Below are positions 1 to 64,000 of a stretch of 64,000 nt of DNA, one piece after another; within the stretch, counting starts at the first letter, position 1, and every line of letters begins with the position of its first letter. The stretch lies in contig JAWUZG010000036.1 in NCBI GenBank assembly GCA_036785705.1, positions 17,353,534 through 17,417,533 of the forward strand, written 5' to 3'. Source of the stretch: Acanthornis magna (taxonomy: Eukaryota; Chordata; Aves; Passeriformes; Acanthizidae). The notes below the pieces were generated by a model that worked only from the letters and a program-made list of their open reading frames with translations, was not told the origin of the DNA and searched no databases. A program made the translations under genes and the position numbers.

Positions 1-392
1 TGGCTCAAGCCAGGTGAAAGCGTCTCTTGGAGGCACTGGCACAGGGTCCTGCAGCTGCTTCTTTGTACATTTCCTGGTGATCTGTGTTCTGTGAGACATT
101 TTGGGGTGGATTAAGGGGAAATTCCCAGAAGCCTCAGTGAGCTGGGGCAATTCTGGGTGCAGGATGAGCAAAATGATTGAGTTGGTGAGCAAAAACCCAC
201 TCCTGTGGAGCAGGATCAAAACGCTGGGGAGCAAAAGCAAGGGATTGGGAGCAAATCACAAGGTTTGATCCACATGAGATGCAGCAGACTGAATCCCCGA
301 AGAGGGCAAGTGGCTGAAAGGCAGCATTTACAGTTTTTGGCTTCTTTCTGTGTGGCGGGGAAGCCAAAGTCTTCTTCGCTTTGATCTTGCAG

Positions 393-3062
393 GAGGCTCT
401 GGAGATGTTGCTCTCAGGAGGGCCTTCCACTCCTCAAGGCCATCCCTTGGCTGATTATCATTATGCAGGTAATCAAAGCAGAGCTTGTTCCTTCACTGGC
501 AGACACTGCCATGCCCTTGATTGCCATGTCAAGAATTTATGGTCAAACAAATAACACGAGAATGAGGTCTCACCTCTGGGGGCAGGGAAAGAAGCAGCAT
601 TTACTCCTTCAGTTTTACTTGTTTTCCATGTGGTTTTTTTCCCTTGGAAATGCCTACTCTTGTCTTCATTGCTTTCTGAGGGAGCAGAGATGTAGACAGG
701 TGAATGATGAATGGTGGTGATTTTGTTCTGGTGGCCAGTGATCCATTTAGCAGAGGATCTATTTCGAGTGGATAGAGAGATCAATTGACCTGCTGCTCTT
801 TATTGCCAGGCTCTGATAGGTGGACACATGAGGAGATGGAGTCCTTTCAAAAGGCTATTCGCACCTATGGCAAGGATTTTAATCTCATCCAGAAGGAGGT
901 AAAGCCACTGGACATTCTTTGCCTAGTGGACAAAACAAGGAAATGTTGAATATTTCTGCTACCAAATACCAGAATCCAGTCTCTCTCTTCTCAAATACCA
1001 AAAATATTAAAATAACAATGAAATGGGACACTGACTTCTGGCATGGAAGTGGTGATTCTGTCTTCCCAGCCCTTTTTTCCAAGCTGTTTTGGAAGAGGAA
1101 GGCTTATTCTCTGTCTCGTGCCTGTGCTGGTGCTTCCACAACATGTTGCCATGGGATAAGTGTGGTGGATGGGGGAAAGAAAAACTGTGCTAGGTGGATT
1201 TGTTGTTGATTGTGCTTTAAATGTATTACTATGTGGCAAAATACATTTCGCTCCATTCCATAATGCCTATTTGTCTCCCTCTTTATTTCATTTTACTCCC
1301 TTACTCAATTTTTTTTCATTGCCTACTTTACTCCATTCCCTAGTTTTTCTCCAATGCACCCTACAGGGTGGCCATTTTAGATTCCTTCTTTTTTTTCTGT
1401 CTCACAACAGGTTCAGACTAAGACTACTGCCCAGTGTGTGGAGTACTACTACTCCTTGAAAAAGGAACGTAAACTTGCCAGCGCTCCTGCTCAGGTGAGT
1501 GGGAAGAAAATCAAGACATGCCAGCAGGGCCAAGAGGCTGGAAGAAGGGGACAAAACCTGCTGGGCAGCTGTGCTAGATGCCGCTCTGTCAGGAGCACAT
1601 TGTCCCCTCCACTGGGAAAGGCGCAGCAGATGCTGCCCAGGGCTTCATTGCACTGCTGCTCTAAAATACTCAATTCTGGAGCATAACTTTGACCCAACAA
1701 AGCAGCACCATCACCAAGATGGGCTTGGACTCTGTACAGACTTGCTTCTCAAGTGCTGGCACCCTCACTAATTCCAATCAGACCCTTAATTCCCCACGGC
1801 TTGCTAACTTGAGAAATCCTGGCTGAATTCATGGAGATGCTGCAGATTTTGAGGGATCTTTTGTATCATCCTAGGGTACTCCCAAAAAAAGGAGCTGCTG
1901 ATGCTGTGGCTCTGCTAAAACTTTCCTGACCTGCAGACAGGAATTTGCTTCACAGAGAGAGAGAGAGAGATGATTTTGTAGATCCCAGTAGAAACTGGGT
2001 AACCATGTGCCTTCACTAATTGGACTGAATTGAAAACCCATTCCCTAGACATTTGTGGAGGGAAAATATGGATAAATAGATGTTAGGCAGAGAGCTCTAA
2101 CTAAGAAATGTAGATCTATAGATACCCACATATTTTCCCCCCACTTTGGGCAGCAGAAAGGAGGTGCTTTTTCCTCCAAGTGCTGTGTTTGTATGCCGCT
2201 GCACCCTGCAGCCAAATCCAGGCATTTTCTCAGCCCTTTAGGGCTTGGAGGAATTTGCTTGGGCTGCTACATTTTTGCGCTGGACGCTCTGATTTCCAGC
2301 TTTCTGAGAGGAAGGAAAAATTGATAAGGCTTCTTTGATTTCCAGACTGTGGGCAGAGCAAAGAGGAGGAAAAGCCCTCCCAGAGAGGAGAAAGGGGAGA
2401 CAGGGAAGAGAAGCCGCAAGAAGGCCCGCAACGCGGACTGTCCCTGCTGCCAGCCGCCCCCGCCACCCCATTCAGCGGGAGGCCCCTTTCCCTGCGGGCA
2501 GTGCCAATGGTGAGGAAGTCCTTCCTCTTTCTGCTGGAAGCCTGGCGCTTTGGACTAACACAGGCTGATCTTTCCAAAGGCACCATGGGGGAAGCTCAGG
2601 GCAGTTGGAGGATCACTCCTCCCAGCCGTGTTCAATACTACCACCCACTTTAAACCCAAACTTCTTCTTGAAACCCCAGCATTCAGAATGAAACCTTGCT
2701 GTGCCCCAACAAGACACAATTCATACAGGTAGTCATAGGAGCACCAAAGCTTGATGGATGGCGCTGATCAAATTAAAAATGGGATGTACTAAAAAGAGGG
2801 AGAAATTTGAGAGTTGAAACAAGAGGGACCAGATTCATGGTGCTGATCAAATTAAAAGGATGTCACAGCCCAAAACCACAGAAATTCATAGAAACGGCAA
2901 TCTCCAAGCTTGATTTAAAGGTGTGCATTGATTTAACAAGGAATGGTTTGTTTCCTGTCTTCCAGTGTTTTTGAAACAGTGAAGGCAAGGAATGCACATA
3001 GGAGAAGACATCGCCCACGCAAGGGAGCAGAGCCTCTTCCCAAGCAGAAAAGATCCAATTAG
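393..3062 (+). CDS. Copy 0: ELM2-SANT-C2H2 corepressor gene, 3' part
   Basis: Only the last five exons are in view, because the window opens inside the intron before exon f. Exons are f 393-468 (end of ELM2), g 810-898 and h 1411-1494 (SANT), i 2346-2509 (linker) and j 2966-3062 (zinc finger and TAG stop). Splice phases agree across every junction. Exon j codes 16 residues beyond the last zinc-binding His. A candidate ATTAAA poly(A) signal lies at 3312-3317. Nothing in these exons is broken, but the state of the 5' half cannot be judged. Confidence 0.85.
1954..1970 (+). repeat. AG microsatellite in the exon h-i intron
   Basis: A pure AG run of 17 nt. It is 17 nt in units 1, 2, 3, 5 and 6 (starts 1954, 9289, 16620, 31265, 38596) and 15 nt in units 4, 7, 8 and 9 (starts 23946, 45920, 53239, 60562). 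The rest of this 851-bp intron contains no other feature I can name. Confidence 0.9.
2763..2857 (+). repeat. Direct repeat in the exon i-j intron
   Basis: GCTGATCAAATTAAAA occurs twice, at 2763-2778 and 2842-2857, 79 bp apart, each preceded by GATGG- or CATGG-like sequence. It looks like an old local duplication that predates the array, since it is present in each unit. No coding or structural role is evident. Confidence 0.7.
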
Positions 3063-3158
3063 CTGTGGAGTTGTTCAGGGCAAGAAAGAGTTAGCTGTCA
3101 AGAGGACTAGATGGAAATAGAATGGGTTTTCAAGTTTTTAGGGTAATTTCTCTTCATA

Positions 3159-3250
3159 CTTAGTTTACTAGATAGGCATTTTTCAATGTATTAGTAAGGA
3201 TTCATTAGTATTCTTAAAGACTTACTAGTGTCATTAGATTTACTAGGAAA
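3159..3250 (+). repeat. TTACTAG/TTAGTA motif cluster in 3' UTR
   Basis: Within about 90 bp of the predicted 3' UTR TTACTAG occurs at 3165, 3222 and 3239 and TTAGTA at 3191 and 3205. It is the only short iterated pattern in the UTR and is the same in each unit. It may be a decayed minisatellite; no known regulatory element is recognised. Confidence 0.5.
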
Positions 3251-3311
3251 TGTAAGAGGTTTGGTGTTGTTTGCCATGTTCCATGTTTTGTCATTTTGTC
3301 TTTATCAAATC

Positions 3312-3350
3312 ATTAAACCAGAGTTTGTTCTGTTTTGCCTTTTTGGCTCT
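3312..3350 (+). promoter_or_regulatory. Candidate poly(A) signal of the repeated gene
   Basis: ATTAAA at 3312-3317 lies 250 bp after the TAG stop of copy 0 and is followed within 35 bp by a T/G-rich stretch (GTTTGTTCTGTTTTG), the usual layout of a vertebrate cleavage site. It recurs unchanged at 10647, 17978, 25298, 32623, 39954, 47272, 54595 and 61918. It implies a short 3' UTR of about 270 nt, contained within the unit. No AATAAA lies between the stop and this point. Confidence 0.6.
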
Positions 3351-4573
3351 ATGTCATCATTCGGCCCACATTTATGACACTTGTGGGCTGTTGCAAACAC
3401 AGCATTTGCCCTGAAAGAAGAACCTGGGCACGTGTGTACTTCTTCAGGCTCAACCCCTCACCCAGCTGCTGGGAGTTGCAAAATTGTGTCCTCAGTACTG
3501 CCACCAAAATAATGGTGGTGTTTTATCCTTTGATTCCTAAAAATCTTGAGTGAGAGTGGCAAGGTAGGCTTTGTTTAATTCAGTGAATTGGATCTAAATG
3601 AGTGGCCTTGTCTCATTCTACTTGGAGGGATAAAAGGTGCTTTTTTTCTCCTTTTTGTCACCAAGCCACATGGCTTTATTGAGTTTTGGTAGACAGATGG
3701 ACTTGACCACCTTGGAGAACTTTTCCACCCTCTCTGATTCTATAAAACTAATATCCACCTTCTTCAGTACAAAGAAATCAGTAGTTGCAATACCTCTTTA
3801 AAGGACCAAGCTCCCACTCCAGGCTCCCATGAACATTCTAAGCTCAAGAAGAGCGGGTGCGAACATTCTCCTCTCACTTCTCATAGCTTGTATTTGCACC
3901 AAAGCAGCATCAAAGTCCCTTCTTTATCGACCCTGGTGTATGGCATGGCCTGGCAAGGTTTTGGTAGCTGGGGTTGAGGAGGATGGGGAGGGGCCAAGGG
4001 ACAGGGATTACCAAGCTGGTTCTGGGAAGCTGCCAGAAGCTTGCCCTGGTCTGATGGAGCCAGTGCAGGTGGGATTTGGAGTCTACAGAGTATCTGCTTT
4101 GCCCAGGGCCTTTTTACAACCGCTCCCCTTAGATGGCTGGCATGCATGTAACAAGCAGGTTGGAAAGGAAGTGAGATTGGCTTTTGTCTAATTTTAAGCA
4201 GGAAAGAAGTAAAATTGGCTGGGTTTTGGCATATTTGGGACCTCAGTTATAAAACAAATATGAAGGCTATTAGTGTGAAAAAGTAATTCTGTTAGTGTTA
4301 GCCTCTTAGAGGAATCCCACAGTCCTTTGAGATGAACATCCAGCTTTTTCAAGGGAGCTGGAAGAAATTGGAATTCTCCATAGGAATATTGCTAAGGAAT
4401 TGCTGGTGTGGTATCCATGTGTGTGTCCCCATGGGTTACCCTGGAAAACATCCTGTTTCTCCAAGGTTCAGGGAATGAGTGTTGAGGTGAGAGACCAGCT
4501 CAGTGCCCCAAAGCATTGAAATCATCAAGTGACATTATTAGGCACCAGGGAATTTAGAAAGGATGCAGGATGA
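3336..4573 (+). other. Spacer between gene copies
   Basis: About 1.24 kb separates the poly(A) region of one copy from the first candidate codon of the next. Apart from the TATA-like motif I see no gene, transposon or RNA in it. A 5-bp GTGCG indel near 3861 separates units 1, 2 and 5 (present) from units 3, 4, 6, 7, 8 and 9 (absent); it opens or closes a 120-codon ORF at 3829 that has no recognisable product. Matching spacers start at 10671, 18002, 25322, 32647, 39978, 47296, 54619 and 61942. Any unit-borne promoter must lie here. Confidence 0.7.
3741..3747 (+). promoter_or_regulatory. TATA-like motif in the spacer
   Basis: TATAAAA stands in the spacer about 400 bp after the poly(A) region and about 830 bp before the first candidate start codon of the next copy. 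It is present in each unit at the matching place. A GTTGAG/GTGAGAG donor-like site near 4482 and the acceptor at 4644-4645 could bound a 5' UTR intron. No CpG-rich promoter is visible. The assignment is weak, because such motifs occur by chance in AT-rich spacer. Confidence 0.25.
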
Positions 4574-5005
4574 ATGCCTCCACTTCAAGAGAAAGTTTGG
4601 AGTTGGTTCTCCACTGAACGATTTCTAATCTCTGGCGCCTCTCAGAGCTGCAGGAGTCCTTCTGGTTCTCTTGCTCAGGCAACACGGTCTGCACCCTTTG
4701 GTGGAGCCAGGATTGTGAGCATGTTCAGCTGTAGGCACCTTCCAGAGAAGCACAGAGAGGACACACAGCCTTCCCTGCACTGCTTTGCCCTGTCCAGAGG
4801 GCTGACCAGAAATGCCCTGATGGGAAGGCCCTCAAAGCAAACTTGCCCCAGAAGAAGTAAACAGGCAAAGGAGACCCCAATTCCTGTTTACACCCCCTGG
4901 GTCCCTTGGTGATCTGCGTGGAATGTTGGGCTGTGCCCGTAGCAACTGTTGGTGTCTCCTGCTCCTGCAGCCGTTGGTGGAACACTGGTGGAGCAGCACC
5001 GGTGG

Positions 5006-5030
5006 AGCAGCAGCTGCAGGAGCTGCTGCT
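5006..5030 (+). repeat. Perfect 10-bp inverted repeat in exon b
   Basis: AGCAGCAGCT, a 5-nt loop GCAGG, then AGCTGCTGCT. It can form a strong hairpin in RNA, placed between the two candidate acceptors of exon b (4970 and 5048). It also encodes the Gln/Leu-rich QQLQELLL stretch if the upstream acceptor is used. It recurs in all nine units. Confidence 0.75.
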
Positions 5031-5757
5031 GGGTTGTCCTGGCTTCAGCATCACATCTGGCCTCTGGACCAATATCCTTATCTCCTCGTCTGCCACCAGG
5101 GATCCTTGAGAGCACTTTGGGACTGTCAAAGGTAAGAAAATCCCCGTTTGCCCTTGAACCAGTAACAGAACTGCAGGAGGCTCCAGTTGGTCGTCCCACC
5201 AACCACAGCAGACATAACCTGGGCCCACTTTCCCCAGAAGAGGTTACTGATGAAAGCAGGGTCCACCTTCTATGGGAATAAAAATGCCTGCAGTGGAAAT
5301 ACAGACCATTCCATAGAGGACATAGAGAGCTGTCACAGTGCAGCTTCAGATCCTCATCCACCTGGGACCTGATTAAAAGTTCTCAGTACCCATTTAAGTA
5401 GTCCTCAAACGATGTTGTGGTGACTCCAAAACAATCCTATCGTTACTGAGGAGTTCAGGAGTTCAGTGTTGACAAATCGTGTTAGGCCCTGGCTCTACTC
5501 ACTCCTCCACCAAAGCTTTGCAAACCAGAATGATGGGACTTTGCCTCTGTGATCCCTGTTGTTCAGGGGATGTAAGCAGTTTGCTGGGCTTGTCCTCCAA
5601 TACTGTCTTTCACCTACAAAAATGGTCTGCTTTCAGCGATTCTTACAGACTCACATACTTTCATAACTTAAGAGATACATCATATTTTAATATCTTTATA
5701 GATACTTCTTATTTTTCACCTGCATTGAACTGCTTTTCCATAGAGATATTGGTAGAA

Positions 5758-6098
5758 CAGAATCACAGAATCACAAGATTTTTCTGAGTTGGAAGGGACC
5801 CACAAAGAGTCTGGCTCCTGGCCCTGCACAGGACAGCCTCAGGAATCCCACCCTGTGCCTAAGAGCAATGTCCAAATGCTTCCTGAGCTCTGGCAGGCTT
5901 GGTGCTGTGACCCCTTGCCTGGGGAGGCTGTTCCGGTGCCCAACCACCCTCTGGGTGAAGAACCTGTCTCTGATATCCAACCTAAACATCACCTGGCACA
6001 ACTTCCATGCCATTCCCTTGGGTCTTGTCTCTAGTCACAAGAATGAAGGGAGCAGTGCCTGCCCTTCTGCTTTCCCTCCTGAGGAAGCTGCAGAATGC
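5758..6098 (-). mobile_element. CR1 LINE 3' fragment, unit 1
   Basis: The + strand has the reverse complement of the CR1 3' terminal repeat (CAGAATCACAGAATCACA), followed by sequence typical of an avian CR1 tail up to about 6098. Translated on the minus strand it gives FRLDIRDRFFTQRVVGH and SLPELRKHLDIALRH, which match what I remember of the C-terminus of the CR1 ORF2 reverse transcriptase. It is 5'-truncated at about 340 bp and lies wholly in the intron between exons b and c. The right edge is approximate. Confidence 0.9.
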
Positions 6099-7331
6099 TA
6101 GAGTCTTGCCTCGCAAACTGCAAGTGACAAATGCAGCAATTACACCAAACTCAGAGGAGCTGGGAAAGAAGAGTTTGTGGTTTGCAAGGATAAGGATGAG
6201 AAGGAAGGCTAATGGCCCATCTGGGGAGAAGGCTTTTTATCTGGAGCATTGTCTTGATCTCTTTCAGGCTGAAAGGAGAGGGATAATGAAAAGGAAATCA
6301 GGAGCCCACGTTCAGCCGTGAGTTTTCGCATAGGCATTAAAGAATGGCATATTTGAGGAATGGCAAGGAGGGAACAGCCATTTCAGAGCTGGAGTGGGAC
6401 TGGTTAAAGCCCGTGGGACCACGGGATGTGTCTCTTGATCACTTGCGTTTCTCACCTGCACCACCTCCTTCCTTTAGACACATCCGTGTTGGCAGTGACT
6501 TTCAGGCTGAGCTGCCTGAGCTGCAGAGCACACCCCCAGTTGAGGATGAAGAGCCTGCAACCCTGGTCTGGAAGCCCTGGGGGGATGATGACTCTGACAT
6601 GGAAAGACCTGACAGAGGTATCTGCCAAACCTTTCTTCCACCCGTGACGTACTTGGGTTTGGAAATCCCTAATTTCTTGGTCAAAAGGCAGCTTCTTGTG
6701 TTCTCTGCTTCTTTCCTTGTCTCGCCCATCTTCCTGCATGGGACTGTTAGAGGGAAGGAGAATGCTCCATTTTTGCAGCCAAGCAACTGTTTTCCTGCTC
6801 TCCAAATTGGTCAGGGCATTTGTCACTGAAAGAGGGGAGATTGGCCCCCACTTCTAATTCCCAAAGCTGCTTTGAAGGAAGTGCCAGCACTGCGTGGGCC
6901 TTTGCTTCAGCTGCCCCTTTCTTTGCTGTTCTCTTCATGCTCCCCAAGCCGTCGTCATTAGCTCTCGTGCCTTCCTTCTCCCTTATTGCTCAGCCTTTCC
7001 CCTTTCCTGGCTCAAGCCTGACTTTCAGTGGGTTTTTGTTGTGCTTGTAGTGAGAGAACTGCTGGACATGGCGAGCTCCCGTGGAGCAGCAGTGAACCTG
7101 GAGCGTGCCCTGCACTGCCTGCACCAGGCGCATGGCAGTGTCCCGGTAAGAAGCGGCTCTTTGGCTGCAGAGAGGAGTGGGCAGGGAATTGATAAGGCCT
7201 GGGCACTGGGACAGCCTCTCCTGGCAGCTCTTTGAAGAAGGGAGTTCACAAGAAGCAGAGCACTCGCTGCCTGCCATGTCTCCTCCAGGAGGCTCTCCAG
7301 TGCAGCAGCTGCACCAGGGATGAGCCCCAAA

Positions 7332-10300
7332 TGGCTCAAGCCAGGTGAAAGCGTCTCTTGGAGGCACTGGCACAGGGTCCTGCAGCTGCTTCTTTGTACA
7401 TTTCCTGGTGATCTGTGTTCTGTGAGACATTTTGGGGTGGATTAAGGGGAAATTCCCAGAAGCCCCAGTGAGCTGGGGCAATTCTGGGTGCAGGATGAGC
7501 AAAATGATTGAGTTGGTGAGCAAAAACCCACTCCTGTGGAGCAGGATCAAAACGCTGGGGAGCAAAAGCAAGGGATTGGGAGCAAATCACAAGGTTTGAT
7601 CCACATGAGATGCAGCAGACTGAATCCCCGAAGAGGGCAAGTGGCTGAAAGGCAGCATTTACAGTTTTTGGCTTCTTTCTGTGTGGCGGGGAAGCCAAAG
7701 CCTTCTTCGCTTTGATCTTGCAGGAGGCTCTGGAGATGTTGCTCTCAGGAGGGCCTTCCACTCCTCAAGGCCATCCCTTGGCTGATTATCATTATGCAGG
7801 TAATCAAAGCAGAGCTTGTTCCTTCACTGGCAGACACTGCCATGCCCTTGATTGCCATGTCAAGAATTTATGGTCAAACAAATAACACGAGAATGAGGTC
7901 TCACCTTCTCTGGGGGCAGGGAAAGAAGCGGCATTTACTCCTTCAGTTTTACTTGTTTTCCATGTGGTTTTTTTCCCTTGGAAATGCCTACTCTTGTCTT
8001 CATTGCTTTCTGAGGGAGCAGAGATGTAGACAGGTGAATGATGAATGGTGGTGATTTTGTTCTGGTGGCCAGTGATCCATTTAGCAGAGGATCTATTTCG
8101 AGTGGATAGAGAGATCAATTGACCTGCTGCTCTTTATTGCCAGGCTCTGATAGGTGGACACATGAGGAGATGGAGTCCTTTCAAAAGGCTATTCGCACCT
8201 ATGGCAAGGATTTTAATCTCATCCAGAAGGAGGTAAAGCCACTGGACATTCTTTGCCTAGTGGACAATGACAAGGAAATGTTGAATATTTCTGCTACCAA
8301 GTACCAGAATCCAGTCTCTCTCTTCTCAAATACCAAAAATATTAAAATAACAATGAAATGGGACACTGACTTCTGGCATGGAAGTGGTGATTCTGTCTTC
8401 CCAGCCCTTTTTTCCAAGCTGTTTTGGAAGAGGAAGGCTTATTCTCTGTCTCGTGCCTGTGCTGGTGCTTCCACAACATGTTGCCATGGGATAAGTGTGG
8501 TGGATGGGGGAAAGAAAAACTGTGCTAGGTGGATTTGTTGTTGATTGTGCTTTAAATGTATTACTATGTGGCAAAATACATTTCGCTCCATTCCATAATG
8601 CCTATTTGTCTCCCTCTTTATTTCATTTTACTCCCTTACTCAATTTTTTTTCATTGCCTACTTTACTCCATTCCCTAGTTTTTCTCCAATGCACCCTACA
8701 GGGTGGCCATTTTAGATTCCTTCTTTTTTTTCTGTCTCACAACAGGTTCAGACTAAGACTACTGCCCAGTGTGTGGAGTACTACTACTCCTTGAAAAAGG
8801 AACGTAAACTTGCCAGCGCTCCTGCTCAGGTGAGTGGGAAGAAAATCAAGACATGCCAGCAGGGCCAAGAGGCTGGAAGAAGGGGACAAAACCTGCTGGG
8901 CAGCTGTGCTAGATGCCGCTCTGTCAGGAGCACATTGTCCCCTCCACTGGGAAAGGCGCAGCAGATGCTGCCCAGGGCTTCATTGCACTGCTGCTCTAAA
9001 ATACTCAATTCTGGAGCATAACTTTGACCCAACAAAGCAGCACCATCACCAAGATGGGCTTGGACTCTGTACAGACTTGCTTCTCAAGTGCTGGCACCCT
9101 CACTAATTCCAATCAGACCCTTAATTCCCCACGGCTTGCTAACTTGAGAAATCCTGGCTGAATTCATGGAGATGCTGCAGATTTTGAGGGATCTTTTGTA
9201 TCATCCTAGGGTACTCCCAAAAAAAGGAGCTGCTGATGCTGTGGCTCTGCTAAAACTTTCCTGACCTGCAGACAGGAATTTGCTTCACAGAGAGAGAGAG
9301 AGAGATGATTTTGTAGATCCCAGTAGAAACTGGGTAACCATGTGCCTTCACTAATTGGACTGAATTGAAAACCCATTCCCTAGACATTTGTGGAGGGAAA
9401 ATATGGATAAATAGATGTTAGGCAGAGAGCTCTAACTAAGAAATGTAGATCTATAGATACCCACATATTTTCCCCCCACTTTGGGCAGCAGAAAGGAGGT
9501 GCTTTTTCCTCCAAGTGCTGTGTTTGTATGCCGCTGCACCCTGCAGCCAAATCCAGGCATTTTCTCAGCCCTTTAGGGCTTGGAGGAATTTGCTTGGGCT
9601 GCTACATTTTTGCGCTGGACGCTCTGATTTCCAGCTTTCTGAGAGGAAGGAAAAATTGATAAGGCTTCTTTGATTTCCAGACTGTGGGCAGAGCAAAGAG
9701 GAGGAAAAGCCCTCCCAGAGAGGAGAAAGGGGAGACAGGGAAGAGAAGCCGCAAGAAGGCCCGCAACGCGGACTGTCCCTGCTGCCAGCCGCCCCCGCCA
9801 CCCCATTCAGCGGGAGGCCCCTTTCCCTGCGGGCAGTGCCAATGGTGAGGAAGTCCTTCCTCTTTCTGCTGGAAGCCTGGCGCTTTGGACTAACACAGGC
9901 TGATCTTTCCAAAGGCACCATGGGGGAAGCTCAGGGCAGTTGGAGGATCACTCCTCCCAGCCGTGTTCAATACTACCACCCACTTTAAACCCAAACTTCT
10001 TCTTGAAACCCCAGCATTCAGAATGAAACCTTGCTGTGCCCCAACAAGACACAATTCATACAGGTAGTCATAGGAGCACCAAAGCTTGATGGATGGCGCT
10101 GATCAAATTAAAAATGGGATGTACTAAAAAGAGGGAGAAATTTGAGAGTTGAAACAAGAGGGATCAGATTCATGGTGCTGATCAAATTAAAAGGATGTCA
10201 CAGCCCAAAACCACAGAAATTCATAGAAACGGCAATCTCCAAGCTTGATTTAAAGGTGTGCATTGATTTAACAAGGAATGGTTTGTTTCCTGTCTTCCAG

Positions 10301-13300
10301 TGTTTTTGAAACAGTGAAGGCAAGGAATGCACATAGGAGAAGACATCGCCCACGCAAGGGAGCAGAGCCTCTTCCCAAGCAGAAAAGATCCAATTAGCTG
10401 TGGAGTTGTTCAGGGCAAGAAAGAGTTAGCTGTCAAGAGGACTAGATGGAAATAGAATGGGTTTTCAAGTTTTTAGGGTAATTTCTCTTCATACTTAGTT
10501 TACTAGATAGGCATTTTTCAATGTATTAGTAAGGATTCATTAGTATTCTTAAAGACTTACTAGTGTCATTAGATTTACTAGGAAATGTAAGAGGCTTGGT
10601 GTTGTTTGCCATGTTCCATGTTTTGTCATTTTGTCTTTATCAAATCATTAAACCAGAGTTTGTTCTGTTTTGCTTTTTTGGCTCTATGTCATCATTCGGC
10701 CCACATTTATGACACTTGTGGGCTGTTGCAAACACAGCATTTGCCCTGAAAGAAGAACCTGGGCACGTGTGTACTTCTTCAGGCTCAACCCCTCACCCAG
10801 CTGCTGGGAGTTGCAAAATTGTGTCCTCAGTACTGCCACCAAAATAATGGTGGTGTTTTATCCTTTGATTCCTAAAAATCTTGAGTGAGAGTGGCAAGGT
10901 AGGCTTTGTTTAATTCAGTGAATTGGATCTAAATGAGTGGCCTTGTCTCATTCTACTTGGAGGGATAAAAGGTGCTTTTTTTCTCCTTTTTGTCACCAAG
11001 CCACATGGCTTTATTGAGTTTTGGTAGACAGATGGACTTGACCACCTTGGAGAACTTTTCCACCCTCTCTGATTCTATAAAACTAATATCCACCTTCTTC
11101 AGTACAAAGAAATCAGTAGTTGCAATACCTCTTTAAAGGACCAAGCTCCCACTCCAGGCTCCCATGAACATTCTAAGCTCAAGAAGAGCGGGTGCGAACA
11201 TTCTCCTCTCACTTCTCATAGCTTGTATTTGCACCAAAGCAGCATCAAAGTCCCTTCTTTATCGACCCTGGTGTATGGCATGGCCTGGCAAGGTTTTGGT
11301 AGCTGGGGTTGAGGAGGATGGGGAGGGGCCAAGGGACAGGGATTACCAAGCTGGTTCTGGGAAGCTGCCAGAAGCTTGCCCTGGTCTGATGGAGCCAGTG
11401 CAGGTGGGATTTGGAGTCTACAGAGTATCTGCTTTGCCCAGGGCCTTTTTACAACCGCTCCCCTTAGATGGCTGGCATGCATGTAACAAGCAGGTTGGAA
11501 AGGAAGTGAGATTGGCTTTTGTCTAATTTTAAGCAGGAAAGAAGTAAAATTGGCTGGGTTTTGGCATATTTGGGACCTCAGTTATAAAACAAATATGAAG
11601 GCTATTAGTGTGAAAAAGTAATTCTGTTAGTGTTAGCCTCTTAGAGGAATCCCACAGTCCTTTGAGATGAACATCCAGCTTTTTCAAGGGAGCTGGAAGA
11701 AATTGGAATTCTCCATAGGAATATTGCTAAGGAATTGCTGCTGTGGTATCCATGTGTGTGTCCCCATGGGTTACCCTGGAAAACATCCTGTTTCTCCAAG
11801 GTTCAGGGAATGAGTGTTGAGGTGAGAGACCAGCTCAGTGCCCCAAAGCATTGAAATCATCAAGTGACATTATTAGGCACCAGGGAATTTAGAAAGGATG
11901 CAGGATGAATGCCTCCACTTCAAGAGAAAGTTTGGAGTTGGTTCTCCACTGAACGATTTCTAATCTCTGGCGCCTCTCAGAGCTGCAGGAGTCCTTCTGG
12001 TTCTCTTGCTCAGGCAACACGGTCTGCACCCTTTGGTGGAGCCAGGATTGTGAGCATGTTCAGCTGTAGGCACCTTCCAGAGAAGCACAGAGAGGACACA
12101 CAGCCTTCCCTGCACTGCTTTGCCCTGTCCAGAGGGCTGACCAGAAATGCCCTGATGGGAAGGCCCTCAAAGCAAACTTGCCCCAGAAGAAGTAAACAGG
12201 CAAAGGAGACCCCAATTCCTGTTTACACCCCCTGGGTCCCTTGGTGATCTGCGTGGAATGTTGGGCTGTGCCCGTAGCAACTGTTGGTGTCTCCTGCTCC
12301 TGCAGCCGTTGGTGGAACACTGGTGGAGCAGCACCGGTGGAGCAGCAGCTGCAGGAGCTGCTGCTGGGTTGTCCTGGCTTCAGCATCACATCTGGCCTCT
12401 GGACCAATATCCTTATCTCCTCGTCTGCCACCAGGGATCCTTGAGAGCACTTTGGGACTGTCAAAGGTAAGAAAATCCCCGTTTGCCCTTGAACCAGTAA
12501 CAGAACTGCAGGAGGCTCCAGTTGGTCGTCCCACCAACCACAGCAGACATAACCTGGGCCCACTTTCCCCAGAAGAGGTTACTGATGAAAGCAGGGTCCA
12601 CCTTCTATGGGAATAAAAATGCCTGCAGTGGAAATACAGACCATTCCATAGAGGACATAGAGAGCTGTCACAGTGCAGCTTCAGATCCTCATCCACCTGG
12701 GACCTGATTAAAAGTTCTCAGTACCCATTTAAGTAGTCCTCAAACGATGTTGTGGTGACTCCAAAACAATCCTATCGTTACTGAGGAGTTCAGGAGTTCA
12801 GTGTTGACAAATCGTGTTAGGCCCTGGCTCTACTCACTCCTCCACCAAAGCTTTGCAAACCAGAATGATGGGACTTTGCCTCTGTGATCCCTGTTGTTCA
12901 GGGGATGTAAGCAGTTTGCTGGGCTTGTCCTCCAATACTGTCTTTCACCTACAAAAATGGTCTGCTTTCAGCGATTCTTACAGACTTACATACTTTCATA
13001 ACTTAAGAGATACATCATATTTTAATATCTTTATAGATACTTCTTATTTTTCACCTGCATTGAATTGCTTTTCCATAGAGATATTGGTAGAACAGAATCA
13101 CAGAATCACAAGATTTTTCTGAGTTGGAAGGGACCCACAAAGAGTCTGGCTCCTGGCCCTGCACAGGACAGCCTCAGGAATCCCACCCTGTGCCTAAGAG
13201 CAATGTCCAAATGCTTCCTGAGCTCTGGCAGGCTTGGTGCTGTGACCCCTTGCCTGGGGAGGCTGTTCCGGTGCCCAACCACCCTCTGGGTGAAGAACCT

Positions 13301-51285: not shown

Positions 51286-54200
51286 TGGCTCAAGCCAGGT
51301 GAAAGCGTCTCTTGGAGGCACTGGCACAGGGTCCTGCAGCTGCTTCTTTGTACATTTCCTGGTGATCTGTGTTCTGTGAGACATTTTGGGGTGGATTAAG
51401 GGGAAATTCCCAGAAGCCTCAGTGAGCTGGGGCAATTCTGGGTGCAGGATGAGCAAAATGATTGAGTTGGTGAGCAAAAACCCACTCCTGCGGAGCAGGA
51501 TCAAAACGCTGGGGAGCAAAAGCAAGGGATTGGGAGCAAATCACAAGGTTTGATCCACATGAGATGCAGCAGACTGAATCCCCGAAGAGGGCAAGTGGCT
51601 GAAAGGCAGCATTTACAGTTTTTGGCTTCTTTCTGTGTGGCGGGGAAGCCAAAGTCTTCTTCGCTTTGATCTTGCAGGAGGCTCTGGAGATGTTGCTCTC
51701 AGGAGGGCCTTCCACTCCTCAAGGCCATCCCTTGGCTGATTATCATTATGCAGGTAATCAAAGCAGAGCTTGTTCCTTCACTGGCAGACACTGCCATGCC
51801 CTTGATTGCCATGTCAAGAATTTATGGTCAAACAAATAACACGAGAATGAGGTCTCACCTCTGGGGGCAGGGAAAGAAGCAGCATTTACTCCTTCAGTTT
51901 TACTTGTTTTCCATGTGGTTTTTTTCCCTTGGAAATGCCTACTCTTGTCTTCATTGCTTTCTGAGGGAGCAGAGATGTAGACAGGTGAATGATGAATGGT
52001 GGTGATTTTGTTCTGGTGGCCAGTGATCCATTTAGCAGAGGATCTATTTCGAGTGGATAGAGAGATCAATTGACCTGCTGCTCTTTATTGCCAGGCTCTG
52101 ATAGGTGGACACATGAGGAGATGGAGTCCTTTCAAAAGGCTATTCGCACCTATGGCAAGGATTTTAATCTCATCCAGAAGGAGGTAAAGCCACTGGACAT
52201 TCTTTGCCTAGTGGACAAAACAAGGAAATGTTGAATATTTCTGCTACCAAATACCAGAATCCAGTCTCTCTCTTCTCAAATACCAAAAATATTAAAATAA
52301 CAATGAAATGGGACACTGACTTCTGGCATGGAAGTGGTGATTCTGTCTTCCCAGCCCTTTTTTCCAAGCTGTTTTGGAAGAGGAAGGCTTATTCTCTGTC
52401 TCGTGCCTGTGCTGGTGCTTCCACAACATGTTGCCATGGGATAAGTGTGGTGGATGGGGGAAAGAAAAACTGTGCTAGGTGGATTTGTTGTTGATTGTGC
52501 TTTAAATGTATTACTATGTGGCAAAATACATTTCGCTCCATTCCATAATGCCTATTTGTCTCCCTCTTTATTTCATTTTACTCCCTTACTCAATTTTTTT
52601 TCATTGCCTACTTTACTCCATTCCCTAGTTTTTCTCCAATGCACCCTACAGGGTGGCCATTTTAGATTCCTTCTTTTTTTTCTGTCTCACAACAGGTTCA
52701 GACTAAGACTACTGCCCAGTGTGTGGAGTACTACTACTCCTTGAAAAAGGAACGTAAACTTGCCAGTGCTCCTGCTCAGGTGAGTGGGAAGAAAATCAAG
52801 ACATGCCAGCAGGGCCAAGAGGCTGGAAGAAGGGGACAAAACCTGCTGGGCAGCTGTGCTAGATGCCGCTCTGTCAGGAGCACATTGTCCCCTCCACTGG
52901 GAAAGGCGCAGCAGATGCTGCCCAGGGCTTCATTGCACTGCTGCTCTAAAATACTCAATTCTGGAGCATAACTTTGACCCAACAAAGCAGCACCATCACC
53001 AAGATGGGCTTGGACTCTGTACAGACTTGCTTCTCAAGTGCTGGCACCCTCACTAATTCCAATCAGACCCTTAATTCCCCACGGCTTGCTAACTTGAGAA
53101 ATCCTGGCTGAATTCATGGAGATGCTGCAGATTTTGAGGGATCTTTTGTATCATCCTAGGGTACTCCCAAAAAAAGGAGCTGCTGATGCTGTGGCTCTGC
53201 TAAAACTTTCCTGACCTGCAGACAGGAATTTGCTTCACAGAGAGAGAGAGAGATGATTTTGTAGATCCCAGTAGAAACTGGGTAACCATGTGCCTTCACT
53301 AATTGGACTGAATTGAAAACCCATTCCCTAGACATTTGTGGAGGGAAAATATGGATAAATAGATGTTAGGCAGAGAGCTCTAACTAAGAAATGTAGATCT
53401 ATAGATACCCACATATTTTCCCCCCACTTTGGGCAGCAGAAAGGAGGTGCTTTTTCCTCCAAGTGCTGTGTTTGTATGCCGCTGCACCCTGCAGCCAAAT
53501 CCAGGCATTTTCTCAGCCCTTTAGGGCTTGGAGGAATTTGCTTGGGCTGCTACATTTTTGCGCTGGACGCTCTGATTTCCAGCTTTCTGAGAGGAAGGAA
53601 AAATTGATAAGGCTTCTTTGATTTCCAGACTGTGGGCAGAGCAAAGAGGAGGAAAAGCCCTCCCAGAGAGGAGAAAGGGGAGACAGGGAAGAGAAGCCGC
53701 AAGAAGGCCCGCAACGCGGACTGTCCCTGCTGCCAGCCGCCCCCGCCACCCCATTCAGCGGGAGGCCCCTTTCCCTGCGGGCAGTGCCAATGGTGAGGAA
53801 GTCCTTCCTCTTTCTGCTGGAAGCCTGGCGCTTTGGACTAACACAGGCTGATCTTTCCAAAGGCACCATGGGGGAAGCTCAGGGCAGTTGGAGGATCACT
53901 CCTCCCAGCCGTGTTCAATACTACCACCCACTTTAAACCCAAACTTCTTCTTGAAACCCCAGCATTCAGAATGAAACCTTGCTGTGCCCCAACAAGACAC
54001 AATTCATACAGGTAGTCATAGGAGCACCAAAGCTTGATGGATGGCGCTGATCAAATTAAAAATGGGATGTACTAAAAAGAGGGAGAAATTTGAGAGTTGA
54101 AACAAGAGGGATCAGATTCATGGTGCTGATCAAATTAAAAGGATGTCACAGCCCAAAACCACAGAAATTCATAGAAACGGCAATCTCCAAGCTTGATTTA

Positions 54201-54345
54201 AAGGTGTGCATTGATTTAACAAGGAATGGTTTGTTTCCTGTCTTCCAGTGTTTTTGAAACAGTGAAGGCAAGGAATGCACATAGGAGAAGACATCGCCCA
54301 CGCAAGGGAGCAGAGCCTCTTCCCAAGCAGAAAAGATCCAATTAG
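48529..54345 (+). CDS. Copy 7: intact ELM2-SANT-C2H2 gene
   Basis: Exons are a 48529-48863 (tentative), b 48926-49085 (alternative start 49004), c 50222-50271, d 50432-50571, e 51005-51099, f 51678-51753, g 52095-52183, h 52696-52779, i 53629-53792 and j 54249-54345. All phases connect and no premature stop is present. In the exons I compared, the predicted protein is the same as copy 4; a silent AGC-to-AGT in exon h (52767) is the only coding difference seen. Candidate poly(A) signal: 54595-54600. Confidence 0.87.
49712..50052 (-). mobile_element. CR1 LINE 3' fragment, unit 7
   Basis: Intronic in the intact gene copy 7, with the same truncation point as the others. Confidence 0.88.
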
Positions 54346-57300: not shown

Positions 57301-58608
57301 CTTGTCTCTAGTCACAAGAATGAAGGGAGCAGTGCCTGCCCTTCTGCTTTCCCTCCTGAGGAAGCTGCAGAATGCTAGAGTCTTGCCTCGCAAACTGCAA
57401 GTGACAAATGCAGCAATTACACCAAACTCAGAGGAGCTGGGAAAGAAGAGTTTGTGGTTTGCAAGGATAAGGATGAGAAGGAAGGCTAATGGCCCATCTG
57501 GGGAGAAGGCTTTTTATCTGGAGCATTGTCTTGATCTCTTTCAGGCTGAAAGGAGAGGGATAATGAAAAGGAAATCAGGAGCCCACGTTCAGCCGTGAGT
57601 TTTCGCATAGGCATTAAAGAATGGCATATTTGAGGAATGGCAAGGAGGGAACAGCCATTTCAGAGCTGGAGTGGGACTGGTTAAAGCCCGTGGGACCACG
57701 GGATGTGTCTCTTGATCACTTGCGTTTCTCACCTGCACCACCTCCTTCCTTTAGACACATCCGTGTTGGCAGTGACTTTCAGGCTGAGCTGCCTGAGCTG
57801 CAGAGCACACCCCCAGTTGAGGATGAAGAGCCTGCAACCCTGGTCTGGAAGCCCTGGGGGGATGATGACTCTGACATGGAAAGACCTGACAGAGGTATCT
57901 GCCAAACCTTTCTTCCACCCGTGACGTACTTGGGTTTGGAAATCCCTAATTTCTTGGTCAAAAGGCAGCTTCTTGTGTTCTCTGCTTCTTTCCTTGTCTC
58001 GCCCATCTTCCTGCATGGGACTGTTAGAGGGAAGGAGAATGCTCCATTTTTGCAGCCAAGCAACTGTTTTCCTGCTCTCCAAATTGGTCAGGGCATTTGT
58101 CACTGAAAGAGGGGAGATTGGCCCCCACTTCTAATTCCCAAAGCTGCTTTGAAGGAAGTGCCAGCACTGCGTGGGCCTTTGCTTCAGCTGCCCCTTTCTT
58201 TGCTGTTCTCTTCATGCTCCCCAAGCCGTCGTCATTAGCTCTCGTGCCTTCCTTCTCCCTTATTGCTCAGCCTTTCCCCTTTCCTGGCTCAAGCCTGACT
58301 TTCAGTGGGTTTTTGTTGTGCTTGTAGTGAGAGAACTGCTGGACATGGCGAGCTCCCGTGGAGCAGCAGTGAACCTGGAGCGTGCCCTGCACTGCCTGCA
58401 CCAGGCGCATGGCAGTGTCCCGGTAAGAAGCGGCTCTTTGGCTGCAGAGAGGAGTGGGCAGGGAATTGATAAGGCCTGGGCACTGGGACAGCCTCTCCTG
58501 GCAGCTCTTTGAAGAAGGGAGTTCACAAGAAGCAGAGCACTCGCTGCCTGCCATGTCTCCTCCAGGAGGCTCTCCAGTGCAGCAGCTGCACCAGGGATGA
58601 GCCCCAAA
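51286..58608 (+). repeat. Array unit 8 (7323 bp)
   Basis: It holds the 3' half of gene copy 7 and the 5' half of copy 8. It shares a synonymous T at 52767 in SANT exon h and a 15-nt GA run (53239-53253) with unit 9, and T at 54112 with units 2, 5 and 9. Exon b has the open single-T allele. Confidence 0.95.
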
Positions 58609-61600
58609 TGGCTCAAGCCAGGTGAAAGCGTCTCTTGGAGGCACTGGCACAGGGTCCTGCAGCTGCTTCTTTGTACATTTCCTGGTGATCTGTGTTCTGT
58701 GAGACATTTTGGGGTGGATTAAGGGGAAATTCCCAGAAGCCTCAGTGAGCTGGGGCAATTCTGGGTGCAGGATGAGCAAAATGATTGAGTTGGTGAGCAA
58801 AAACCCACTCCTGCGGAGCAGGATCAAAACGCTGGGGAGCAAAAGCAAGGGATTGGGAGCAAATCACAAGGTTTGATCCACATGAGATGCAGCAGACTGA
58901 ATCCCCGAAGAGGGCAAGTGGCTGAAAGGCAGCATTTACAGTTTTTGGCTTCTTTCTGTGTGGCGGGGAAGCCAAAGTCTTCTTCGCTTTGATCTTGCAG
59001 GAGGCTCTGGAGATGTTGCTCTCAGGAGGGCCTTCCACTCCTCAAGGCCATCCCTTGGCTGATTATCATTATGCAGGTAATCAAAGCAGAGCTTGTTCCT
59101 TCACTGGCAGACACTGCCATGCCCTTGATTGCCATGTCAAGAATTTATGGTCAAACAAATAACACGAGAATGAGGTCTCACCTCTGGGGGCAGGGAAAGA
59201 AGCAGCATTTACTCCTTCAGTTTTACTTGTTTTCCATGTGGTTTTTTTCCCTTGGAAATGCCTACTCTTGTCTTCATTGCTTTCTGAGGGAGCAGAGATG
59301 TAGACAGGTGAATGATGAATGGTGGTGATTTTGTTCTGGTGGCCAGTGATCCATTTAGCAGAGGATCTATTTCGAGTGGATAGAGAGATCAATTGACCTG
59401 CTGCTCTTTATTGCCAGGCTCTGATAGGTGGACACATGAGGAGATGGAGTCCTTTCAAAAGGCTATTCGCACCTATGGCAAGGATTTTAATCTCATCCAG
59501 AAGGAGGTAAAGCCACTGGACATTCTTTGCCTAGTGGACAAAACAAGGAAATGTTGAATATTTCTGCTACCAAATACCAGAATCCAGTCTCTCTCTTCTC
59601 AAATACCAAAAATATTAAAATAACAATGAAATGGGACACTGACTTCTGGCATGGAAGTGGTGATTCTGTCTTCCCAGCCCTTTTTTCCAAGCTGTTTTGG
59701 AAGAGGAAGGCTTATTCTCTGTCTCGTGCCTGTGCTGGTGCTTCCACAACATGTTGCCATGGGATAAGTGTGGTGGATGGGGGAAAGAAAAACTGTGCTA
59801 GGTGGATTTGTTGTTGATTGTGCTTTAAATGTATTACTATGTGGCAAAATACATTTCGCTCCATTCCATAATGCCTATTTGTCTCCCTCTTTATTTCATT
59901 TTACTCCCTTACTCAATTTTTTTTCATTGCCTACTTTACTCCATTCCCTAGTTTTTCTCCAATGCACCCTACAGGGTGGCCATTTTAGATTCCTTCTTTT
60001 TTTTCTGTCTCACAACAGGTTCAGACTAAGACTACTGCCCAGTGTGTGGAGTACTACTACTCCTTGAAAAAGGAACGTAAACTTGCCAGTGCTCCTGCTC
60101 AGGTGAGTGGGAAGAAAATCAAGACGTGCCAGCAGGGCCAAGAGGCTGGAAGAAGGGGACAAAACCTGCTGGGCAGCTGTGCTAGATGCCGCTCTGTCAG
60201 GAGCACATTGTCCCCTCCACTGGGAAAGGCGCAGCAGATGCTGCCCAGGGCTTCATTGCACTGCTGCTCTAAAATACTCAATTCTGGAGCATAACTTTGA
60301 CCCAACAAAGCAGCACCATCACCAAGATGGGCTTGGACTCTGTACAGACTTGCTTCTCAAGTGCTGGCACCCTCACTAATTCCAATCAGACCCTTAATTC
60401 CCCACGGCTTGCTAACTTGAGAAATCCTGGCTGAATTCATGGAGATGCTGCAGATTTTGAGGGATCTTTTGTATCATCCTAGGGTACTCCCAAAAAAAGG
60501 AGCTGCTGATGCTGTGGCTCTGCTAAAACTTTCCTGACCTGCAGACAGGAATTTGCTTCACAGAGAGAGAGAGAGATGATTTTGTAGATCCCAGTAGAAA
60601 CTGGGTAACCATGTGCCTTCACTAATTGGACTGAATTGAAAACCCATTCCCTAGACATTTGTGGAGGGAAAATATGGATAAATAGATGTTAGGCAGAGAG
60701 CTCTAACTAAGAAATGTAGATCTATAGATACCCACATATTTTCCCCCCACTTTGGGCAGCAGAAAGGAGGTGCTTTTTCCTCCAAGTGCTGTGTTTGTAT
60801 GCCGCTGCACCCTGCAGCCAAATCCAGGCATTTTCTCAGCCCTTTAGGGCTTGGAGGAATTTGCTTGGGCTGCTACATTTTTGCGCTGGACGCTCTGATT
60901 TCCAGCTTTCTGAGAGGAAGGAAAAATTGATAAGGCTTCTTTGATTTCCAGACTGTGGGCAGAGCAAAGAGGAGGAAAAGCCCTCCCAGAGAGGAGAAAG
61001 GGGAGACAGGGAAGAGAAGCCGCAAGAAGGCCCGCAACGCGGACTGTCCCTGCTGCCAGCCGCCCCCGCCACCCCATTCAGCGGGAGGCCCCTTTCCCTG
61101 CGGGCAGTGCCAATGGTGAGGAAGTCCTTCCTCTTTCTGCTGGAAGCCTGGCGCTTTGGACTAACACAGGCTGATCTTTCCAAAGGCACCATGGGGGAAG
61201 CTCAGGGCAGTTGGAGGATCACTCCTCCCAGCCGTGTTCAATACTACCACCCACTTTAAACCCAAACTTCTTCTTGAAACCCCAGCATTCAGAATGAAAC
61301 CTTGCTGTGCCCCAACAAGACACAATTCATACAGGTAGTCATAGGAGCACCAAAGCTTGATGGATGGCGCTGATCAAATTAAAAATGGGATGTACTAAAA
61401 AGAGGGAGAAATTTGAGAGTTGAAACAAGAGGGATCAGATTCATGGTGCTGATCAAATTAAAAGGATGTCACAGCCCAAAACCACAGAAATTCATAGAAA
61501 CGGCAATCTCCAAGCTTGATTTAAAGGTGTGCATTGATTTAACAAGGAATGGTTTGTTTCCTGTCTTCCAGTGTTTTTGAAACAGTGAAGGCAAGGAATG

Positions 61601-61668
61601 CACATAGGAGAAGACATCGCCCACGCAAGGGAGCAGAGCCTCTTCCCAAGCAGAAAAGATCCAATTAG
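55852..61668 (+). CDS. Copy 8: intact ELM2-SANT-C2H2 gene
   Basis: Exons are a 55852-56186 (tentative), b 56249-56408 (alternative start 56327), c 57545-57594, d 57755-57894, e 58328-58422, f 59001-59076, g 59418-59506, h 60019-60102, i 60952-61115 and j 61572-61668. The frame is open throughout. Exon h has the same silent AGT codon (60090) as copy 7, so neighbouring intact copies look recently homogenised or duplicated. Candidate poly(A) signal: 61918-61923. Confidence 0.87.
57035..57375 (-). mobile_element. CR1 LINE 3' fragment, unit 8
   Basis: Intronic in the intact gene copy 8. Unit 9 ends at the window edge before its own element would begin, so this is the last of eight. Confidence 0.88.
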
Positions 61669-64000
61669 CTGTGGAGTTGTTCAGGGCAAGAAAGAGTTAG
61701 CTGTCAAGAGGACTAGATGGAAATAGAATGGGTTTTCAAGTTTTTAGGGTAATTTCTCTTCATACTTAGTTTACTAGATAGGCATTTTTCAATGTATTAG
61801 TAAGGATTCATTAGTATTCTTAAAGACTTACTAGTGTCATTAGATTTACTAGGAAATGTAAGAGGTTTGGTGTTGTTTGCCATGTTCCATGTTTTGTCAT
61901 TTTGTCTTTATCAAATCATTAAACCAGAGTTTGTTCTGTTTTGCCTTTTTGGCTCTATGTCATCATTCGGCCCACATTTATGACACTTGTGGGCTGTTGC
62001 AAACACAGCATTTGCCCTGAAAGAAGAACCTGGGCACGTGTGTACTTCTTCAGGCTCAACCCCTCACCCAGCTGCTGGGAGTTGCAAAATTGTGTCCTCA
62101 GTACTGCCACCAAAATAATGGTGGTGTTTTATCCTTTGATTCCTAAAAATCTTGAGTGAGAGTGGCAAGGTAGGCTTTGTTTAATTCAGTGAATTGGATC
62201 TAAATGAGTGGCCTTGTCTCATTCTACTTGGAGGGATAAAAGGTGCTTTTTTTCTCCTTTTTGTCACCAAGCCACATGGCTTTATTGAGTTTTGGTAGAC
62301 AGATGGACTTGACCACCTTGGAGAACTTTTCCACCCTCTCTGATTCTATAAAACTAATATCCACCTTCTTCAGTACAAAGAAATCAGTAGTTGCAATACC
62401 TCTTTAAAGGACCAAGCTCCCACTCCAGGCTCCCATGAACATTCTAAGCTCAAGAAGAGCGGAACATTCTCCTCTCACTTCTCATAGCTTGTATTTGCAC
62501 CAAAGCAGCATCAAAGTCCCTTCTTTATCGACCCTGGTGTATGGCATGGCCTGGCAAGGTTTTGGTAGCTGGGGTTGAGGAGGATGGGGAGGGGCCAAGG
62601 GACAGGGATTACCAAGCTGGTTCTGGGAAGCTGCCAGAAGCTTGCCCCGGTCTGATGGAGCCAGTGCAGGTGGGATTTGGAGTCTACAGAGTATCTGCTT
62701 TGCCCAGGGCCTTTTTACAACCGCTCCCCTTAGATGGCTGGCATGCATGTAACAAGCAGGTTGGAAAGGAAGTGAGATTGGCTTTTGTCTAATTTTAAGC
62801 AGGAAAGAAGTAAAATTGGCTGGGTTTTGGCATATTTGGGACCTCAGTTATAAAACAAATATGAAGGCTATTAGTGTGAAAAAGTAATTCTGTTAGTGTT
62901 AGCCTCTTAGAGGAATCCCACAGTCCTTTGAGATGAACATCCAGCTTTTTCAAGGGAGCTGGAAGAAATTGGAATTCTCCATAGGAATATTGCTAAGGAA
63001 TTGCTGGTGTGGTATCCATGTGTGTGTCCCCATGGGTTACCCTGGAAAACATCCTGTTTCTCCAAGGTTCAGGGAATGAGTGTTGAGGTGAGAGACCAGC
63101 TCAGTGCCCCAAAGCATTGAAATCATCAAGTGACATTATTAGGCACCAGGGAATTTAGAAAGGATGCAGGATGAATGCCTCCACTTCAAGAGAAAGTTTG
63201 GAGTTGGTTCTCCACTGAACGATTTCTAATCTCTGGCGCCTCTCAGAGCTGCAGGAGTCCTTCTGGTTCTCTTGCTCAGGCAACACGGTCTGCACCCTTT
63301 GGTGGAGCCAGGATTGTGAGCATGTTCAGCTGTAGGCACCTTCCAGAGAAGCACAGAGAGGACACACAGCCTTCCCTGCACTGCTTTGCCCTGTCCAGAG
63401 GGCTGACCAGAAATGCCCTGATGGGAAGGCCCTCAAAGCAAACTTGCCCCAGAAGAAGTAAACCAGGCAAAGGAGACCCCAATTCCTGTTTACACCCCCT
63501 GGGTCCCTTGGTGATCTGCGTGGAATGTTGGGCTGTGCCCGTAGCAACTGTTGGTGTCTCCTGCTCCTGCAGCCGTTGGTGGAACACTGGTGGAGCAGCA
63601 CCGGTGGAGCAGCAGCTGCAGGAGCTGCTGCTGGGTTGTCCTGGCTTCAGCATCACATCTGGCCTCTGGACCAATATCCTTATCTCCTCGTCTGCCACCA
63701 GGGATCCTGAGAGCACTTTGGGACTGTCAAAGGTAAGAAAATCCCCGTTTGCCCTTGAACCAGTAACAGAACTGCAGGAGGCTCCAGTTGGTCGTCCCAC
63801 CAACCACAGCAGACATAACCTGGGCCCACTTTCCCCAGAAGAGGTTACTGATGAAAGCAGGGTCCACCTTCTATGGGAATAAAAATGCCTGCAGTGGAAA
63901 TACAGACCATTCCATAGAGGACATAGAGAGCTGTCACAGTGCAGCTTCAGATCCTCATCCACCTGGGACCTGATTAAAAGTTCTCAGTACCCATTTAAGT
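58609..64000 (+). repeat. Array unit 9, cut by the window edge
   Basis: The first 5392 bp of a unit. It holds the 3' half of gene copy 8 and the first two candidate exons of copy 9. It shares T at 60090 with unit 8. Private changes are A-to-G near 60126, T-to-C near 62647 and one extra C at 63463-63464 in exon a. Confidence 0.95.
63175..64000 (+). CDS. Copy 9: 5' part, truncated by window end
   Basis: Only exon a (63175-63510) and exon b (63573-63732, or from 63651) are in view; the window stops inside the intron after b. Exon b has the open single-T allele. Exon a has one extra C at 63463-63464, which breaks the frame that would end in PIPVYTPWVP. The same insertion joins that frame to the frame of exon b without splicing, so an unspliced ORF of 235 codons runs from 63175 to 63882. 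If exon a is coding this copy is damaged unless the short intron is retained; if the gene starts elsewhere the change is harmless. Confidence 0.55.

Follow-up and report, generated by a model that had tools for sequence, protein, structure and literature searches.

What gene is repeated along this stretch of songbird DNA, do its copies still encode a protein, where does the repeat lie, and what could maintain it? The window (the whole stretch analyzed, 64,000 nucleotides) comprises positions 17353534-17417533 of contig JAWUZG010000036.1 (hereafter C36; 17.4 Mb), which ends at 17417533. Counts of distances between exact words give one dominant period, 7,318-7,335 bp, across the whole window, which is a head-to-tail array of about 8.7 units of that length. 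Eight complete units, u1-u8, delimited by an arbitrarily chosen anchor in the 5' exon region, were aligned; between any two of them there are 2-15 substitutions and 0-17 gap columns, corresponding to about 99.8% identity or more. The word distances and the eight-unit alignment bear out the tandem repetition every ~7.32 kb that an initial annotation of this DNA had described.

Each complete unit contains an eight-exon plus-strand gene with GT-AG introns and a predicted 258-aa ELM2-SANT-C2H2 product. In the reference unit, u1 (4983..12317, plus strand; 7,335 bp, with borders at the arbitrary anchor), the exons, all on the plus strand, are x0 (6268..6317; first in-frame ATG at 6286, MKRK...), A (6478..6617; ELM2 motif, HIRVGSDFQAELPELQ...LVWKPW), B (7051..7145; ELM2 helices), C (7724..7799; linker), D (8144..8232; SANT first half), E (8746..8829; SANT second half), F (9681..9844; basic linker and Cys pair of the C2H2 finger), and G (10301..10397; His pair of the finger, basic tail, and TAG stop). 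Two annotated relatives from blue tit and crow, P0004 and P0010, also start with MKRK. Exon B is three residues short, after the first ELM2 helix, relative to 14 other aligned passerine rows. A probable 5' untranslated exon (4943..5131, plus strand), which ends at a GT donor and whose start is not fixed, resembles 5' parts of predicted Vidua and Chiroxiphia proteins and has no in-frame ATG upstream of x0. Within 1.3 kb past the stop there is a single poly(A)-like signal, ATTAAA at 10647, 250 bp downstream. The unit also carries a CR1-like interspersed repeat (5761..6094) with a 70.6% match to the C36 flank segment L009. A scan of positions 4983-12400 detects no CpG-rich stretch in the unit, with CpG observed/expected values of 0.05-0.30 throughout; CpG-rich stretches are present in the flanking SCAMP1 and AP3B1 regions. 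An Rfam scan of window positions 1-16000 gave no match.

The spliced reading frame is open in seven of the eight complete copies in the window. Beyond u1, open copies, all on the plus strand, lie in u2 (13603..17728), u3 (20929..25048, with one Arg-to-His change in exon F), u4 (28248..32373), u5 (35579..39704), u7 (50222..54345), and u8 (57545..61668). The exception is the plus-strand copy in u6 (unit, 41620-48937; gene copy, 42904..47022), which is broken by a 1-bp deletion, and hence a frameshift, in exon x0. The unit alignment also places a partial unit, u0 (1..4982, plus strand; exons C-G of a copy, with exon G at 2966-3062), at the left end, and 416 bases of a further plus-strand unit (63585..64000), cut by the end of C36, at the right end. 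The array extends past the left edge of the window and into a second contig, C121: an ELM2-exon search of the genome contigs (30 matches in total; 43/43 candidates scored) finds 11 copies on C36 and 14 on C121, and a search with exon F finds the same 25 copies, which is a lower bound since 147/212 candidates were scored. Neither search finds array copies on other contigs. Most C121 copies are known only from exon matches; three more complete copies were read there and all are open, so that 10/11 fully read copies are open, and the two broken copies known among the 25 are u6 and the C121:5740650 copy, which has a 1-bp deletion in exon F.

The initial annotation had proposed a profile search as its own check, and with Pfam both domains of the window protein score above cut-offs: ELM2 (PF01448) at 1.2e-10 and 42.6 bits (cut-off 21.7), and Myb/SANT (PF00249) at 1e-11 and 45.2 bits. 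The zf-C2H2 profile scores 12.1 bits, as against a cut-off of 25.2, and the Cys/His spacing spans the exon F-G junction. Among solved structures, the closest relatives are MIDEAS chains from the MiDAC complex (PDB 6z2j and 9r4i), which match the ELM2-SANT region over 160 residues at 1.1e-43. A structural model of the zebra finch relative P0001 (mean pLDDT 65.9, pTM 0.34) is confident for the SANT domain and the finger (finger pLDDT about 90), fair for the ELM2 helices, and low elsewhere; its best Foldseek match is a chain of the MiDAC complex 9r4i, at 3.2e-7.

With SANT numbering fixed on the MIDEAS residues named in PMC7319964, the window protein keeps the equivalents of K843, K850, Y871, Y872, K875, and K876. 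It has E, G, L, and R at the positions of K839, K849, Y874, and V878. We assume HDAC and inositol-phosphate roles for K850, Y871, Y872, K875, and K876 by transfer from SMRT and MTA1. As described for MIDEAS in PMC7319964, the ELM2 domain binds DNTTIP1, and K849, Y874, and V878 of the SANT domain make the tetramer contact. The G, L, and R at those three positions mean that the window protein lacks this feature of MiDAC. None of the seven further rows compared, among them the ZNF541-type ones, retains the MIDEAS residue at Y874 or V878, and those two positions therefore do not discriminate.

A protein search finds 40 relatives, of which 17, all from passerines, carry the name 'zinc finger protein 541-like'; the other named relatives are passerine proteins that are hypothetical or otherwise named and proteins from two doves, a cuckoo, a plover, and a pangolin, and the rest are unnamed. 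The best relative is T. guttata P0001, at 80% identity. A single zebra finch cluster comprises 14 sequences, a figure that may include isoforms or several assemblies and is not a copy count. Two Passer domesticus proteins, P0031 and P0032, labelled 'REST corepressor 2-like' and 'transcriptional-regulating factor 1-like', are encoded on a 46.5 Mb contig different from that of P0012 and look like misnamed members of the ZNF541-like family. Manis javanica has several short ZNF541-like proteins (P0021, P0034, P0035), hinting at a separate ZNF541-like duplication in a mammal, the pangolin.

In a tree of 23 rows, the window protein falls within the passerine clade (100/99), in a loose group (80/83) that also contains T. 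guttata, Vidua, and Anomalospiza. A 98/97 split sets MIDEAS, on a long branch, and two rows taken to be TRERF1-type apart from the window protein and all rows named ZNF541. With the root set at the midpoint, a 95/90 branch separates the ZNF541-type rows P0020 and P0021 from the window protein and leaves them with MIDEAS/TRERF1; given that placement ZNF541 does not form a single clade, and the tree fits descent from ZNF541 without proving it. The initial annotation's identification of a MiDAC-type ELM2-SANT-zinc-finger gene at high copy number is upheld by the domains, the tree, and the copies; the family is already known in birds from the passerine 'zinc finger protein 541-like' entries among the 40 proteins. 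On sequence evidence, the gene is best placed with ZNF541, as a putative passerine-specific, N-terminally shortened ZNF541-like gene.

The shortening lies upstream of ELM2. Human MIDEAS, TRERF1, and ZNF541 are all described as having a moderately conserved region of ~80 residues before ELM2 (PMC4344507). We used the stretch before ELM2 of ZNF541-type P0020, taken as the equivalent of this region, as a query against the genome, and obtained seven matches at E<=10 (10/10 candidates scored), of which two are significant (1e-13 and 5e-12), at separate MIDEAS (L016; contig C10) and TRERF1 (L017) loci, and five are weak (0.395-7.69). The names of those two loci are our own assignments, made by similarity. 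The strongest of the weak matches, on C122 (E 0.395), consists of fragments that do not share a frame and are out of sequence, and was taken as chance. The genome search gives no match on C36 or C121, and hence none in the array, and no coding exon upstream of x0 was recognised in the unit. The array gene is therefore a shortened form and not a whole ZNF541. Since the pre-ELM2 block is significant at the MIDEAS and TRERF1 loci alone, this search detects no full-length ZNF541 in the assembly; an assembly gap, limited search sensitivity, or a missing GC-rich microchromosome could hide one. The ELM2 search reaches five places outside the array. A bird would presumably have more ELM2 genes than that, and so the search misses some. 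A bolder reading, in which songbird ZNF541 was reduced to the core that docks HDAC, relocated to the Z chromosome, and raised to at least 25 copies as the sole remaining gene of its class, such that a Z-linked dosage array replaced a single-copy meiosis regulator, is one that we hold tentatively and consider on balance doubtful.

Our main reading, to which we assign a probability of roughly 0.6, is that the array is a Z-chromosome amplicon of the shortened passerine ZNF541-like gene with a putative role as an HDAC scaffold in the male germ line. According to this reading, the copies would have arisen, and would stay alike, by unequal exchange between repeats; the 258-aa protein would be made in the male germ line, would wrap HDAC1/2 through its ELM2-SANT region with the inositol-phosphate pocket intact, and would probably join DNTTIP1; and this HDAC-docking, inositol-phosphate-responsive core may form a smaller assembly. 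The outcome could be a high-dose meiotic HDAC scaffold, as ZNF541 is in mammals, or a modulation of HDAC1/2 that lacks the N-terminal targeting region. The ELM2-SANT region of MIDEAS is reported to be enough to bind HDAC1 and DNTTIP1 in a tight complex (PMC4344507). ZNF541 is described as almost testis-only and as a proposed builder of an alternative MiDAC (PMC7319964), and spermatocytes of mouse Zfp541 mutants are reported to fail to exit pachytene (PMC8104389), for which reasons male germ-line expression is our leading guess and a male-germline function of the array appears likely.

Variation among copies bears on the alternative that survives best, namely that the array is a passive amplicon, in which a truncated remnant of ZNF541, functionless or nearly so, is expanded and homogenised like a satellite by unequal crossing-over and its frames are open because the copies are young. 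The alignment of the eight units has 41 variable columns among 7,336, of which four fall among 795 exon positions and 37 among 6,541 other columns; exon variation is as dense as variation elsewhere, and recent selection between copies is therefore invisible. This equal density is what a passive amplicon would give, and the two frameshifted copies, the lack of a CpG-rich stretch in the unit, and the turnover seen at the C36 start of the array (~17335606), where an edge copy that matches u1 at 94.5% identity across 920 bp adjoins copies at 99.9%, point the same way. Units three apart are the most alike (mean distance 7.4, as against 10.3-13.7 at lags 1, 2, 4, and 5; 31 collapsed events), a pattern that 400 of the 40,320 orders of eight units equal in extremity; because five lags were tested, the pattern is suggestive and not strong, and it suggests growth of the array in blocks of about three units.

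Comparison across relatives speaks against passivity. When exons and introns are compared as translated sequence, which is feasible where relatives carry intron read-through, exons are more identical than introns in 29/29 rows with >=12 intron positions (40 proteins queried), as in Anomalospiza (exons 136/161, introns 44/72), Passer P0031 (77/104, 63/107), and the unnamed P0036 (40/46, 43/83), the contrast being rough in that some rows include spurious intron alignments. Predicted proteins of the family are also present in many passerine species. Taking both sides together, we regard the passive amplicon as a possible but rather unlikely explanation.

The window protein differs at eight ELM2-SANT positions that are invariant in 14 other passerine rows, and at a ninth such site, 211, compared in six rows. 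Accelerated evolution of the array protein was considered and rejected, the relative-rate test giving p<0.05 in only 2/22 comparisons. That result, together with the restriction of the copies to two contigs in the genome searches, makes it improbable that the array is a conflict element, in which Z copies over-produce an HDAC-binding core devoid of targeting parts that is in competition with other scaffolds of HDAC1/2 and either skews the formation of gametes or answers a driver, even though the high copy number on a sex chromosome, the retained HDAC-contact positions, and the absent pre-ELM2 block would suit such an element.

C36 and C121 both end inside the array, in opposite orientations; the C121 part starts at 5724092, and the assembled array amounts to about 82 + 104 kb, or about 186 kb. 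Because the two contigs end in the array in orientations that suit a single array and have fitting flanks, the simplest reading, and the one that we infer, is that at least 25 copies form one array, split by an assembly gap, with the two contigs as its two ends; two separate arrays would be a less simple arrangement. The left edge copy is split by an unrelated stretch of ~700 bp (L010:4897-5606; C36:17334897-17335606) that is LTR-like by eye, at the left border of which is sequence resembling the 5' part of the manakin relative P0005. The assembly totals 1.48 Gb, which seems large for a songbird. The break of both contigs within the array would be in keeping with an assembly artefact that multiplied one or two real copies; however, individual copies have substitutions and indels of their own, which follow a period-3 pattern and for which simple assembler stutter is inadequate. 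In addition, the copy at the edge is diverged, and each contig has its own flank, the two fitting one another; we therefore judge an artefact very improbable.

The flanks also indicate the chromosome. C36 carries three minus-strand SCAMP1 exons, at 17284224, 17295123, and 17299274; one of these matches the SCAMP domain at 2.9e-13 and the other two have no such match, and the assignment to SCAMP1 rather than to other SCAMP genes is a probable one, made from the exon sequences. A nearby CpG-rich stretch (C36:17321501-17323000) is taken for the SCAMP1 promoter. The C121 flank has a first exon on the minus strand, at 5703214, that matches AP-3 beta-1 residues 1-43 (9.6e-6) and adjoins a CpG-rich stretch. 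SCAMP1 and AP3B1 thus flank the array, both transcribed away from it, and inspection by eye of the longest other open frames in the flanks named no further gene. In human, AP3B1 and SCAMP1 are divergent neighbors. Zebra finch SCAMP1 is reported to be Z-encoded (PMC3585881) and chicken AP3B1 to be Z-linked (PMC6591452), and since both flanking genes are reported as Z-linked, the array most likely lies on the Z chromosome, between SCAMP1 and AP3B1. The initial annotation had suggested a sex-limited or germline-restricted chromosome, for which the ampliconic gene families reported on the blue tit germline-restricted chromosome (PMC10172847) offer a precedent, but with genes reported as Z-linked next to the array on both contigs, a C36 of 17.4 Mb, and all 25 copies found lying on C36 and C121, location on the W or a germline-restricted chromosome can practically be dismissed.

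A songbird array whose likely partner is HDAC1/2 and whose mouse relative is linked to pachytene would make the causes of such arrays (dosage in male meiosis, sexual antagonism on the Z, or conflict) open to test, and, if full-length ZNF541 is truly gone, would offer a test of how a male-meiosis regulator can be replaced. Among known systems, the closest in protein is ZNF541/ZFP541, which has ELM2-SANT ahead of a C-terminal C2H2 finger (an order also seen in ZNF541-type P0020 and P0021 and predicted for the array protein), which shares through the rows so named the array gene's side of the 98/97 split from MIDEAS/TRERF1-type rows, and whose name the passerine relatives of the array gene carry in databases. 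However, ZNF541/ZFP541 is given as 1,363 aa in mouse (PMC8104389), as against 258 aa for the array protein, and the array gene differs from it in having no pre-ELM2 block, in its probable Z linkage, and in its at least 25 copies. MIDEAS shares the ELM2-SANT region and the inositol-phosphate/HDAC positions with the array protein, but is a protein of 1,045 aa (PMC7319964), has a separate locus, on C10, and differs in the tetramer-contact residues. Among the literature matches listed (published papers, judged by title and abstract opening), none describes ZNF541 copies in birds. HINTW, the ampliconic W gene of birds, is likewise a high-copy sex-chromosome gene, with concerted evolution, but is W-linked and a different protein (PMC4468903), and testis-biased amplicons are reported on chicken dot chromosomes (PMC9974502). 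The closest in arrangement are the large tandem arrays of four testis gene families on the chicken Z, reported as absent in duck (PMC7787181), which are likewise tandem and on an avian Z; the passage describing them leaves the four families unnamed, testis expression is shown for the chicken arrays, and the array described here belongs to a passerine. The Z array described here would thus be a songbird addition to the testis-gene arrays of the avian Z, with a distinctive protein.
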